Shown piece by piece: positions 14,199-17,991 of a stretch of DNA of 46,549 bases. A program made the translations under genes and the position numbers. The stretch's first letter is position 1, and the number at the start of each line of letters is the position of its first letter. The stretch comes from Bacteroidia bacterium. GTDB lineage: Bacteria; Bacteroidota; Bacteroidia; Bacteroidales; Paludibacteraceae. Under the pieces are notes generated by a model. That model made no database searches, was not told the origin of the DNA, and worked only from the letters and a program-made list of their open reading frames with translations. The stretch spans positions 1 through 46,549 of the forward strand of contig SAAL01000015.1 of the NCBI GenBank assembly GCA_009929445.1, read 5' to 3'.

Positions 14199-15263
14199 TT
14201 ATTTTCCGTACATGTTCTCGTAGTATTTTTCATATTCGCCGCTGGTCACGTTGTCCATCCATTCCTGGTTTTCGAGATACCATTTCACGGTTTTCTCAAT
14301 TCCTTCCTCAAACTGGAGCGAGGGTTCCCACCCGAGTTCGTTTTTCAGCTTGGTAGAATCTATGGCGTAGCGCAAATCATGTCCTGCCCTGTCGGTGACG
14401 TAGGTAATCAGGCCGAGCGAATGTCCTTCGGGGTTGCCGAGCAGTTTATCCACCGTTTTAATCATCACTTTTATCAAATCGATATTTTTCCACTCGTTGA
14501 ATCCGCCGATATTATAGGTATCTCCCGGTTTACCCCGATGAAAAATCACGTCGATAGCGCGTGCATGATCCACCACATAAAGCCAGTCGCGCACGTTTTC
14601 GCCTTTGCCGTAAACGGGAAGCGGTTTTTCGTGCCGTATATTGTTGATAAATAGCGGAATAAGTTTTTCGGGGAACTGATATGGACCGTAGTTATTCGAG
14701 CAATTGGAGATAATCACATTCAGACCATAAGTATCGTGAAATGCGCGTACAAAGTGATCGGAAGAGGCTTTACTGGCCGAATAAGGCGAATGTGGATCGT
14801 AACTGGTCGTTTCGGTAAACATGCTGCCGTCAAATTCCAGCGCTCCGTACACTTCGTCGGTTGAAATATGATAGAAACGGTGCGCAGCGTAGTCTTCTTT
14901 CCACATTTCCTTAGCAGCCTGAAGCAAACTCAGGGTTCCCATTACGTTGGTCTGTGCAAATGTGAACGGATCTTTGATGCTTCGGTCCACATGACTTTCG
15001 GCAGCCAGATGTATTACATCTGTAACTTCATACGTTTTGAAGATTTGGAGCATCTGCTCAAAATCACAAATATCAGCTTTCACAAACCGGTAATTCGGAG
15101 CATTTTCGATGTCTTTCAGATTAGCCAGATTTCCGGCATACGTAAGTTTATCAAGGTTGATGATGCGGTAATCCGGATACTGATTCACAAACAGACGGAC
15201 AACATGGTTGCCTATAAATCCGGCACCTCCGGTGATGAGGATATTTTTAGCGTTTTTTTTCAT
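14199..15263 (-). CDS. rmlB: dTDP-glucose 4,6-dehydratase RmlB
   Basis: This 354-residue extended short-chain dehydrogenase has the NAD-binding GGAGFIGNHVVRLF at the N-terminus, HLAAESHVDRSI near 85, STDEVYG near 135 and the catalytic YSASKASSDH near 160. It makes dTDP-4-keto-6-deoxyglucose, which can feed both rhamnose synthesis (RmlC, RmlD) and the deoxysugar genes at 1-2362. It is separated from rmlD by the RAYT/REP insertion and has its own terminator at 14147-14176. Confidence 0.95.
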   Translation of the reverse strand: MKKNAKNILITGGAGFIGNHVVRLFVNQYPDYRIINLDKLTYAGNLANLKDIENAPNYRFVKADICDFEQMLQIFKTYEVTDVIHLAAESHVDRSIKDPFTFAQTNVMGTLSLLQAAKEMWKEDYAAHRFYHISTDEVYGALEFDGSMFTETTSYDPHSPYSASKASSDHFVRAFHDTYGLNVIISNCSNNYGPYQFPEKLIPLFINNIRHEKPLPVYGKGENVRDWLYVVDHARAIDVIFHRGKPGDTYNIGGFNEWKNIDLIKVMIKTVDKLLGNPEGHSLGLITYVTDRAGHDLRYAIDSTKLKNELGWEPSLQFEEGIEKTVKWYLENQEWMDNVTSGEYEKYYENMYGK

Positions 15264-15303: not shown

Positions 15304-15430
15304 GGGGGTGAAATCCCTGTTTTATGGTAGCAAATAGTTATGGTTTAAATTTTCAGGAGTGTAACCCCTTTTTTATGGTAGCAAATAGTTTGGTTTGGAT
15401 TTTCAGGGGTGTAACCCCTTTTTTATGGTT
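15304..15430 (-). repeat. REP-like hairpins, AGGGGT family (three units)
   Basis: Three units about 51 bp apart lie beyond the 3' end of the transposase gene. Read on the minus strand each is ACCATAAAA, then a stem AGGGGT/ACCCCT with a 3-nt loop (TAC or TTC). The outermost unit is degenerate. They are inverted relative to the AGGTGC family on the other side of the gene, and the ACCATAAAA motif faces the gene on both sides. Confidence 0.85.
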
Positions 15431-15439
15431 TAGCCACCG

Positions 15440-15901
15440 TTATTCATAAAACTCAAACAAATATGCATCCTCATACTTAATTTCAAATTTCTTCAACAAT
15501 TCCATGTATTCTTCTCTAAATGTTTTTTTCTTATGATGATCTTTTTGACCAATTATATATTTTATCACATTGTCTCTTTGACTTTTTGAATAACTGAATG
15601 CGGCATATCCCTTCTGCCATTCAAAATGACTTGAGATTTTTCGATTATCATTTATCCATTTTGACGAATTTGTTTTCACAATATCCATAATCTCAGCAAT
15701 TGTAATTGTCATTGTTAATTCGAAAAACACATGAATGTGATCTTTGTATCCTCCAACCGCTAATGGATATTGTTTTTTCTCAAGGAGTTTTCCACTTATT
15801 ACTTTACAGAGTTCATCCATGAGTGATTCCGAAATTAAATTCTTTCGTCCTTTTACGGAAAAAACGGCATGAATGTTTACCTGACTGTATGTGTTTGCCA
15901 T
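15440..15901 (-). CDS. IS200-like REP-associated tyrosine transposase (RAYT, Y1/HUH)
   Basis: This 153-residue single-domain Y1 transposase has the metal-binding HUH motif HIHVFF at 55-60 and VIKYIIGQKDHH at 112-123, in which Tyr115 is the likely nucleophile. It ends EDAYLFEFYE, as many short Bacteroidota relatives do. Such enzymes cut and rejoin single-stranded DNA at hairpins. The frame is open ten codons upstream, but those codons overlap a REP hairpin, so the ATG at 15901 is chosen. The gene is bracketed by REP hairpin arrays at 15304-15430 and 15910-16191 and interrupts the rml genes. It appears intact. Confidence 0.85.
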   Translation of the reverse strand: MANTYSQVNIHAVFSVKGRKNLISESLMDELCKVISGKLLEKKQYPLAVGGYKDHIHVFFELTMTITIAEIMDIVKTNSSKWINDNRKISSHFEWQKGYAAFSYSKSQRDNVIKYIIGQKDHHKKKTFREEYMELLKKFEIKYEDAYLFEFYE

Positions 15902-15909
15902 AATATTAA

Positions 15910-16191
15910 CCATAAAACAGGTGCGATGCACCTGTATATTCTTTTATAAAATCTTTTTCCTACCATAAAAGAGGTGCTACGTACCTGCATATTCTTTTTT
16001 GAAATCTTTCATACCATAAAAGAGGTGCGATGCACCTATACATTCTTTTTTAAATTCTTTCCTACCATAAAATAGGTGCCACGTACCTACATATTCTTTT
16101 TTATAATCTTTCCTACCATAAAAGAGGTGCGATGCACCTACGTATTCTTTTTTAAAATCTTTTTCTACCATAAAAGAGGTGCGATGCACCT
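15910..16191 (+). repeat. REP-like hairpin array, AGGTGC family (six units)
   Basis: Six hairpins start at 15919, 15972, 16023, 16074, 16125 and 16177, a period of 51-53 bp. Each unit is TACCATAAAA, one or two bases, AGGTGC, a 3-nt loop, GCACCT (GTACCT in two units), then a T-rich spacer. The near-51-bp period keeps a minus-strand frame open (16195 to 15977) whose product is only the repeat translated. The unit next to the transposase reads TTAACCATAAAA instead of CTACCATAAAA. Confidence 0.92.
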
Positions 16192-16257: not shown

Positions 16258-16530
16258 TATAAGATATTCAGGGGTGAAACCCCTGTTTTATGGTAGCAAA
16301 TAGTTTGGTTTAGATTTTCAGGGGTGTAACCCCTTTTTTATGGTAGTAAATAGTTATGATATGAATGTTTTCATGATGTTTGTGTTTGCCATAATATTAA
16401 CCATAAAACAGGTGCGATGCACCTGCATATTTTTTTTTGAAATCTTTTCCTACCATAAAAGAGGTGCGATGCACCTACGTATTCTTTTTTGAAATCTTTT
16501 TCCTACCATAAAGGAGGTGCGATGCACCTT
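16258..16530 (-). mobile_element. Transposase-deleted second copy of the RAYT/REP element
   Basis: This segment repeats the layout of the element at 15304-16191 but lacks the gene body. It has two AGGGGT-family hairpins (16270-16334), then a short stretch matching the first codons of the transposase (the ATG lies at 16391-16393, translation MANTNIMK), then an identical run of over 40 bp around the start, and three AGGTGC-family hairpins (starting 16410, 16462 and 16515). It probably arose by internal deletion or by duplication of the flanks. Confidence 0.75.
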
Positions 16531-16577: not shown

Positions 16578-17426
16578 TTAAGTCATTTCTCTCAACGAAA
16601 CCTTCCAGTACGGTATTTTTAACCCAAACGTTTCTTTTATTTTTGTTTTGTCTAAAACAGAAAAATTCGGCCGTTTCACTTTGCTTGGAAATTCGGCCGA
16701 GTGGCAGGGCTGAATGTCGCACAGGTTGCCGCTCAGATTCCGGATTTCAATTGCAAAATCATACCACGAGCATACTCCTTCGTTGGAGAAATGATAAATG
16801 CCCGAATTACTTTTGTACTTTCCGGTTTCGATTATTTCCAGAATGGCACTTGCCAAATCTGCGGCATACGTAGGCGTTCCTACCTGGTCGAAAACCACTT
16901 TCAGACTATCCTTTTCGGCTGTGAGTCGTCGAATTGTTTTCACAAAATTATTCCCGAAAGAAGAATACAGCCACGAAGTGCGGATAATCAGATAATCGCA
17001 CCCGGAATCTGTCACCGCTTTTTCACCGTCAAGTTTTGTACGGCCGTAAACTCCGAGCGGGGCTGTAGGATCGGTTTCGAGATATGGCGTATTTTTGCTC
17101 CCGTCGAACACGTAATCGGTCGAGATGTGAATAAGTATCAGTTTGTATTTTGCACTTACCTCTGCCAGGTTTTTCACCGCCAGGTGATTGATATTATCCG
17201 CCATTTCTGTATCGTCCTCGGCTTTATCCACGTTGGTGTATGCAGCGCAGTTAACAATGATATCAGTTCCGTGTTCCGACACGTAATTGTCAACGGCTTC
17301 CCGATTGGTAATGTCCAGTTCGGCCACATCGGTAAAGAGAAACTCGTGATTAGAATTCACTGACAGCACACGTAATTCACTTCCCAATTGCCCATTTGCT
17401 CCGGTAACAAGAATTTTTTTACTCAT
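16578..17426 (-). CDS. rmlD: dTDP-4-dehydrorhamnose reductase RmlD
   Basis: This 282-residue short-chain reductase has ILVTGANGQLGSELR at the N-terminus, VNCAAYTNVDKAE near 65, STDYVFDG near 105, and YGRTKLDGEKAV near 130 holding the catalytic Tyr and Lys. It reduces C4 of the RmlC product to dTDP-L-rhamnose. The frame opens ten codons earlier, but the ATG at 17426 before MSKKILVTG is the conserved start, and it overlaps the end of rmlC by 8 bp. The 3' end lies 48 bp from the nearest REP hairpin, so the RAYT element landed just behind this gene. Confidence 0.93.
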   Translation of the reverse strand: MSKKILVTGANGQLGSELRVLSVNSNHEFLFTDVAELDITNREAVDNYVSEHGTDIIVNCAAYTNVDKAEDDTEMADNINHLAVKNLAEVSAKYKLILIHISTDYVFDGSKNTPYLETDPTAPLGVYGRTKLDGEKAVTDSGCDYLIIRTSWLYSSFGNNFVKTIRRLTAEKDSLKVVFDQVGTPTYAADLASAILEIIETGKYKSNSGIYHFSNEGVCSWYDFAIEIRNLSGNLCDIQPCHSAEFPSKVKRPNFSVLDKTKIKETFGLKIPYWKVSLREMT

Positions 17427-17991
17427 ATAAATTGATTGAATAGTCAAACAACACATCCGCCTCGCTCAACAAAGGATTATTCCTGTCCTTTTCCGAAAGC
17501 AGAATTTCTGCTGCCGGAATTTTCCAGTCAATACCTAATGCTGCATCGTCCCAGGCTATTCCGGCTTCGGACTGAGGAGCGTAATAATTATCACATTTGT
17601 ACTGAAAGACAACCGTTTCACTCAACACTACAAATCCATGTGCAAATCCTCGCGGAACGAACATCTGACGTTTGTTCTCGTCATTCAGTTCAGCGGCCAC
17701 GTACTTTCCGAACGTGGGCGAACCTTTGCGAATGTCGACCGCCACATCGAGCACGCTTCCCTGAACCACACGAACTAACTTGGATTGTGCGTAAGGAGCT
17801 TTCTGAAAATGAAGCCCCCGCAATACGCCAAACCTCGATTTTGATTCATTGTCCTGTACGAACTCCGTTTTAAACACTTTTTCTTCGAACTCCCGCTGCG
17901 AAAACGATTCGAAAAAATAACCCCGATGATCGCCATACACATCGGGTTCCAGAATCTTCACTTCAGCTATTTCTGTATCAATTATTTTCAT
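17419..17991 (-). CDS. rmlC: dTDP-4-dehydrorhamnose 3,5-epimerase RmlC
   Basis: This 190-residue cupin epimerase has the catalytic-histidine motif VLRGLHFQ near residues 56-63, a basic SKLVRVVQGSVLDVAVDIR strand, and FVPRGFAHGFVVLSE near 115. It epimerises dTDP-4-keto-6-deoxyglucose at C3 and C5. Length and motifs are standard. It overlaps rmlD by 8 bp, so the two are translated together. The gap upstream to rmlA holds two copies of a CCCC/GGGG repeat. Confidence 0.95.
   Translation of the reverse strand: MKIIDTEIAEVKILEPDVYGDHRGYFFESFSQREFEEKVFKTEFVQDNESKSRFGVLRGLHFQKAPYAQSKLVRVVQGSVLDVAVDIRKGSPTFGKYVAAELNDENKRQMFVPRGFAHGFVVLSETVVFQYKCDNYYAPQSEAGIAWDDAALGIDWKIPAAEILLSEKDRNNPLLSEADVLFDYSINLYE

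Follow-up and report, generated by a model that had tools for sequence, protein, structure and literature searches.

What kind of genetic system is formed by a single Y1 transposase gene with arrays of short hairpins on both of its sides? The question is raised by one locus in the 46,549-nt stretch of DNA analysed here (the window). As read from the sequence and the list of open reading frames, a gene for a 153-residue Y1 transposase (tnpA, 15440-15901, minus strand) is flanked there by two mutually inverted arrays, with three units with an AGGGGT stem on its left and six with an AGGTGC stem on its right. In both arrays the hairpins face outward and the GGTAG feet face tnpA. On the plus strand, the left units read as a hairpin followed by TTTTATGGTAG, with start-to-start spacings of 51 and 50 bp and GTA or GAA loops: GGGGGT-gaa-ATCCCT then GTTTTATGGTAG (15304-15330), AGGAGT-gta-ACCCCT then TTTTTATGGTAG (15355-15381), and the inner AGGGGT-gta-ACCCCT with a degenerate foot, ATGGTT (15405-15430). 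The right units lie on the minus strand and appear on the plus strand as a CTACCATAAAA-type head followed by the hairpin, with starts at 15908, 15961, 16012, 16063, 16114 and 16166 and spacings of 53, 51, 51, 51 and 52 bp, so that the period at the locus is 50-53 bp overall. The inner one (15908-15933) has an AGGTGC stem and the foot TTAACC on the plus strand; it is followed by CTACCATAAAA with AGGTGC-tac-GTACCT (15960-15986), by a third unit (16012-16037), by AGGTGC-cac-GTACCT (16062-16088), and by the last two (16113-16139 and 16165-16191). Their loops are GAT, except for TAC or CAC in these two variants.

The preliminary description of this DNA had reported both inverted families around the transposase, and their numbers and stem letters are as it gave them. 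It overlooked a second, gene-less set immediately beyond the first. Two left-type AGGGGT units (16270-16346, plus strand, starts at 16270 and 16320; 94% identical to the first copy over 81 nt) are followed by a remnant of tnpA (16361-16392, minus strand), which consists of codons 1-11 and matches 15869-15901, and by three right-type AGGTGC units (16399-16529, minus strand, starts at 16399, 16451 and 16504; 93% identical over 72 nt). Because only the start of tnpA remains between the arms, this set is an internal-deletion derivative of the whole left-gene-right element. The head sequence is less uniform than had been proposed: some heads read AACCATAAAAC or ATACCATAAAA instead of CTACCATAAAA. 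Likewise, the claim that variant stems always keep pairing by wobble depends on the strand, since the unit at 15355 (AGGAGT/ACCCCT) has an A.C mismatch on the plus strand and a G.T pair only on the opposite one. Terminator-like hairpins number 20 in the window against 0.7 in shuffled sequences, and a chance origin of the window's hairpins is excluded.

The element sits between rmlD (dTDP-4-dehydrorhamnose reductase, 16578-17456) and rmlB (dTDP-glucose 4,6-dehydratase, 14199-15263), both named from their sequences without a family search. The two genes belong to a co-directional operon, and tnpA is on the minus strand as they are. The gap between them is 1317 nt long in the window; in two members of the same family it is 113 and 126 nt, and in a genome of the same genus 579 nt. 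The element is therefore an addition to the operon. Comparison of the rmlD-rmlB gaps of relatives did not recover a clean empty site or the exact insertion joint, since the genome of the same genus (G439, locus L166) holds another insert in this gap. That 579-nt insert is a different one and apparently contains an open reading frame, so the gap may be an insertion hotspot.

As for the identity of the transposase, Pfam Y1_Tnp matches it with an E-value of 7.6e-21, while the NCBIfam IS200 equivalog model NF033573 is just missed (54.1 bits against a cut-off of 55). The protein carries the motifs DHIH, WQKGY and YIIGQKDHH. The Y---Q--HH motif is found in 117 of 122 relatives, and among 52 aligned relatives both histidines of the HUH motif, the W-Q pair, Y115, Q119, H123 and E131 are invariant; the window protein has H55, H57, W95, Q96, Y115, Q119, H122 and H123. 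A search of the PDB with the single sequence gave no match. A profile search of the PDB matched ISDra2, IS608 and other IS200-type structures, and TnpAREP was absent from its matches. The AlphaFold model is confident (pLDDT 92) and resembles the hairpin-bound TnpA of IS200/IS605 elements; in a fold search with this model, structures of the IS608/ISDra2 type came first and the Escherichia coli TnpAREP (4er8) ranked 30th. Subclass 1.2 of TnpA was defined by DH[IV]H, WQ and Y---Q--HH, a length of about 148-150 residues and an occurrence in Bacteroidetes and Cyanobacteria (Quentin et al. 2018, PMC6006769). The window protein has DHIH, WQ, Y---Q--HH and 153 residues, its named relatives are mostly Bacteroidota, and it lacks the Y---NP motif by which RAYTs (class 2) are recognized. 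On sequence grounds it is thus assigned to TnpA subclass 1.2, within the IS200 clade. Together with the IS200-type profile and fold matches, these motifs mean that it is not a RAYT by clade, and the label 'RAYT' in the preliminary description had to be given up.

The other copies of the transposase in its own genome are only 32% identical to it. Within the genomes of relatives, identity between tnpA genes has a median of 51% and a maximum of 90%; the several near-identical whole copies that characterize IS200/IS605 subclass 1.1 were not seen. Such low intragenomic identity is as expected for a domesticated gene with mobile palindromes. Of note, a distant Y---Q--HH gene on contig C19 of the own genome (locus L011) lies between two direct copies of a different hairpin, TCCCGC-cat-GCGGGA, at positions 1041 and 1866, and a Y1_Tnp stretch with two in-frame stops on contig C270 (L010) is apparently a decayed copy.

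Do the hairpins belong to the gene, or only to this locus? Relatives were picked by protein similarity alone, from 393 genomes of the order and a named genome collection, and 122 loci were read. The stems in their flanks differ and the geometry is one: a 5-bp stem, a loop of 3-4 nt (mostly GTA or GTTA), exactly nine nucleotides, and GTA[G/A]. The pattern hairpin-N9-GTA[GA] accounts for 300 units in 92 of the 122 loci, against 4-33 units at other spacers and 19 at spacer 9 in reversed sequences; these loci share ancestry, and unit counts do not represent independent events. Under the rule used, 30 of the 122 loci have no unit. All 18 relatives with at least 55% identity and full flanks have units, and permuted feet, used as a control, are scarce. 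The total includes a second type of foot, TTTGTAG, which stands at equal distance in many of the loci left over by the GGTA[AG] foot. The window units fit the same pattern, with their sixth pair corresponding to the first base of the spacer. Searching the relatives for the literal head CTACCATAAAA returned nothing useful because the first seven bases of the spacer vary, the distance to GTAG being the only constant. The window's period is typical as well: of 67 steps between successive same-strand units in relatives, 50 measure 46-56 nt. Among the loci read, the hairpin unit is a family-wide feature. No Rfam family matches it. In three Planctomycete relatives (L080, L081 and L082), the hairpin is followed by GTAG at spacer 8 and not 9.

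That the hairpin itself is under selection was already proposed in the preliminary description, and the relatives bear this out. Among 65 distinct units, two-sided changes are found at all five pairs. They fill 109 cells, where shuffles gave 23.4 and slid controls no more than 16; because perfect pairing was the criterion for entering this set, its informative part is the variety of the pairs alone. Unbiased tests of pairing come from two other sets. When feet of the form [AT][TA][ACT]GGTA[AG] were chosen blind to pairing (550 sites), 198 were preceded at the fixed distance by a stem with five of five Watson-Crick pairs, and the units with at least four of five pairs comprised 47 distinct stems. 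In an earlier, narrower set with a spacer of 8 before GGTAG, full pairing was seen in 25% of the sites with a 3-nt loop and in 48% with a 4-nt loop, where shuffles gave 5% and 13%; the remaining spacers gave 0-5%, save for 11% in one case that is an echo of the same stem. The wobble pattern failed as an indicator of the folded strand: single non-Watson-Crick pairs are split evenly (16 G.T and 16 A.C), so they give no clue to the strand under selection. GNA triloops occur in 63 of 89 units on the strand that reads hairpin then foot and in one on the other strand, which is a hint only, because related units are not independent.

Units whose transposases are more distant from each other also differ more in spacer (Mantel r 0.58) and in stem (r 0.47; p 0.001), a relationship that would fit co-inheritance as well as co-adaptation. 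Units in tandem on the same side tend toward a common stem. The proposal that each side has its own stem holds as a tendency only, since among 32 two-sided loci the left and right stems are different in 22 and the same in ten. Tandem amplification that proceeded separately on the two sides explains this tendency best, and the earlier suggestion that the units multiply in tandem as partners of a Y1 transposase is supported.

The preliminary description would count a lack of further copies in the genome against its reading. For the exact stems such a lack is seen, and for the unit type it is not. The exact AGGGGT and AGGTGC families are confined to the tnpA locus in the 3.83 Mb searched, and the head CTACCATAAAA recurs at one site elsewhere, on contig C166; units of the same type with other stems are dispersed in this genome as in those of relatives. 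With a covariance model of the unit, 2-43 copies per genome were detected in all 21 tnpA-positive genomes, the own genome included, whereas 18 of 20 tnpA-negative genomes have none or one and two have at least two. The copies are spread over many contigs, many copies stand without a transposase, and units outnumber genes. Gene-less copies occur in the + + - - order found around the gene in genome G262, and in the - - + + or - + + order in G145, G129 and the own genome. In the latter, the copies on contigs C68 and C180 match almost completely over the units and lie in unrelated flanking sequence, and further single units with other stems lie on C154, C207 and C19. Some G262 copies share sequence past the borders of the units, so segmental or larger duplications may contribute to dispersal. 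On one contig of G152 (C152, 11288-11767), the covariance model detects about ten tandem units with a 50-nt period.

We consider it probable (about 0.75) that the locus is a REPtron-like system for the processing of single-stranded DNA, which is built on an IS200-clade transposase and hairpin-N9-GTAG units and has seeded gene-less copies. Each unit, with its stem of about 5-6 bp, its loop of 3-4 nt, nine nucleotides and GTAG, would be recognized and processed by TnpA in single-stranded form, for example on the lagging-strand template. TnpA would bind the hairpin and would cut and rejoin at the GTAG, nine bases on its 3' side, or close to that motif, as the TnpA proteins of IS608 and ISDra2 do with a hairpin and a nearby cleavage site. 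At the right end of IS200/IS605 elements the processing site is expected 3' of the hairpin, and in IS608 the cleavage site at this end lies at a distance from the hairpin similar to nine bases. The distance between hairpin and GTAG seems closer to this arrangement than to that of REPs, which have GTAG at the 5' foot. The inverted arrays, the tandem amplification at about 51-53 bp and the gene-less copies would result from TnpA activity or from recombination between units. The family-wide unit, its exact spacing, the covariation of its stem, its tie to the presence of tnpA, the dispersal and the gene-less derivatives are observed, and we infer TnpA binding, cleavage, the strand used and mobility; the expected binding of a folded single strand and the cut near GTAG are drawn from the chemistry of IS200/IS605 and TnpAREP (PMC8266576).

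Other readings deserve to be weighed against this one. A classical RAYT/REP system, with a class 2 TnpAREP and its GTAG REPs, would account for a single-copy-like Y1 gene, inverted palindromes, a GTAG motif and copies dispersed in relatives. It is nonetheless very improbable: the protein has Y---Q--HH and not Y---NP, the profile search matches IS200/IS605 TnpA structures and no TnpAREP, 4er8 comes far behind IS608 and ISDra2 in the fold search, and GTAG stands nine nucleotides 3' of the hairpin and not at its 5' foot (PMC6006769). Membership in class 2 is thus refuted by motif, profile, fold and GTAG position alike.

Less improbable than a RAYT, though still unlikely, is a conventional IS200/IS605 insertion sequence that carries several hairpins at its ends by coincidence and has given rise to MITEs. 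The closest solved structures are indeed those of IS transposases, NCBI annotates one relative as an IS200/IS605 family transposase, the second copy is an internal-deletion derivative, and gene-less copies keep the + + - - layout. However, there is no near-identical multicopy gene (32% identity in the own genome, an intragenomic median of 51%), units exceed genes in number, and the NCBIfam IS200 model falls just below its cut-off. Moreover, the arrays are inverted, whereas IS608 has two hairpins on the same strand. Alternatively, the hairpins could be RNA elements, or transcription terminators or attenuators within operons, with the transposase being incidental. In the window, T-rich runs follow the hairpins, which are scored as terminators far more often than expected, and the elements lie between co-directional genes (44 of 54 neighbours). 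Yet the GACATTATGGTAG-type tails of relatives are not T runs, Rfam offers no family, the presence of units follows the gene, and termination explains neither the exact 9-nt distance to GTAG nor the inversion on both strands. This reading therefore appears quite improbable, and termination is rejected as the general main function; in the window itself, the units could in addition act as terminators.

With a REPtron-like system as the preferred reading, its place among known systems can be outlined. As in TnpAREP REPtrons (PMC6006769, PMC8266576), a Y1 HUH protein is encoded beside inverted short GTAG palindromes, several per side, and palindromes of the unit type, though not those with the window's own stems, are dispersed and non-autonomous. 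In contrast, the protein is of class 1.2, GTAG lies nine nucleotides 3' of the hairpin where class 2 REPs are recognized by GT[AG]G at its 5' foot (PMC6006769), stems are of about 5-6 bp, and the units form tandem arrays with a period of about 51-53 bp. Fold, catalytic residues and a hairpin with a nearby site are common to IS608 and ISDra2, unlike the inverted multi-hairpin arrays on both sides, the low gene copy number and the many gene-less units. REPINs (PMC3116915) likewise consist of inverted palindrome pairs dispersed without a transposase, resembling the - - + + copies in G145, G129 and the own genome; here, the type of palindrome and the transposase clade are different, and copies number in the tens. 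REPIN copy numbers reach hundreds.

All signatures of TnpA subclass 1.2 are shared, but the survey that described it lists no REPs for it and concluded that IS properties are not shared (PMC6006769), whereas most of the relatives tested here have cognate units. The absence of REP or IS hairpins is a result of that survey, not a defining property of the subclass. While REPs, REPINs and RAYTs are known, the open literature searched yielded no account of palindromes accompanying subclass 1.2, subscription journals and ISfinder lying outside the search; relative to that literature, this kind of palindrome and its association with the subclass are new. We lean towards the view that a second REP-type system has arisen in the IS200 clade apart from RAYTs, by domestication of a subclass 1.2 TnpA with its own palindromes and a reversed GTAG geometry (hairpin-N9-GTAG), and that its range takes in Bacteroidota, Ignavibacteria and at least one bin of the Acidobacteriota. 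The role of subclass 1.2 transposases was open because they had been described without insertion-sequence features or REPs. A precise candidate substrate makes it directly testable with one protein and one short single-stranded oligonucleotide. Such a system would show that the coupling of a lone Y1 transposase to dispersed palindromes arose outside the RAYT clade, would account for a class of short intergenic palindromic repeats in Bacteroidota, and would reveal that bacteria have a second, overlooked type of system in which a transposase is combined with dispersed palindromes.

In the genomic surroundings of the relatives, genes next to tnpA (L024-L056) are mostly on the same strand, 25 of 28 upstream and 19 of 26 downstream, as in the window. 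Four of the closest relatives (L025, L026, L027 and L040) are embedded in cas operons of type I-B, where they stand beside cas3 or in the intervals cas5-cas3 and cas7-cas5; a further two lie directly 3' of hsdR in type I restriction systems.
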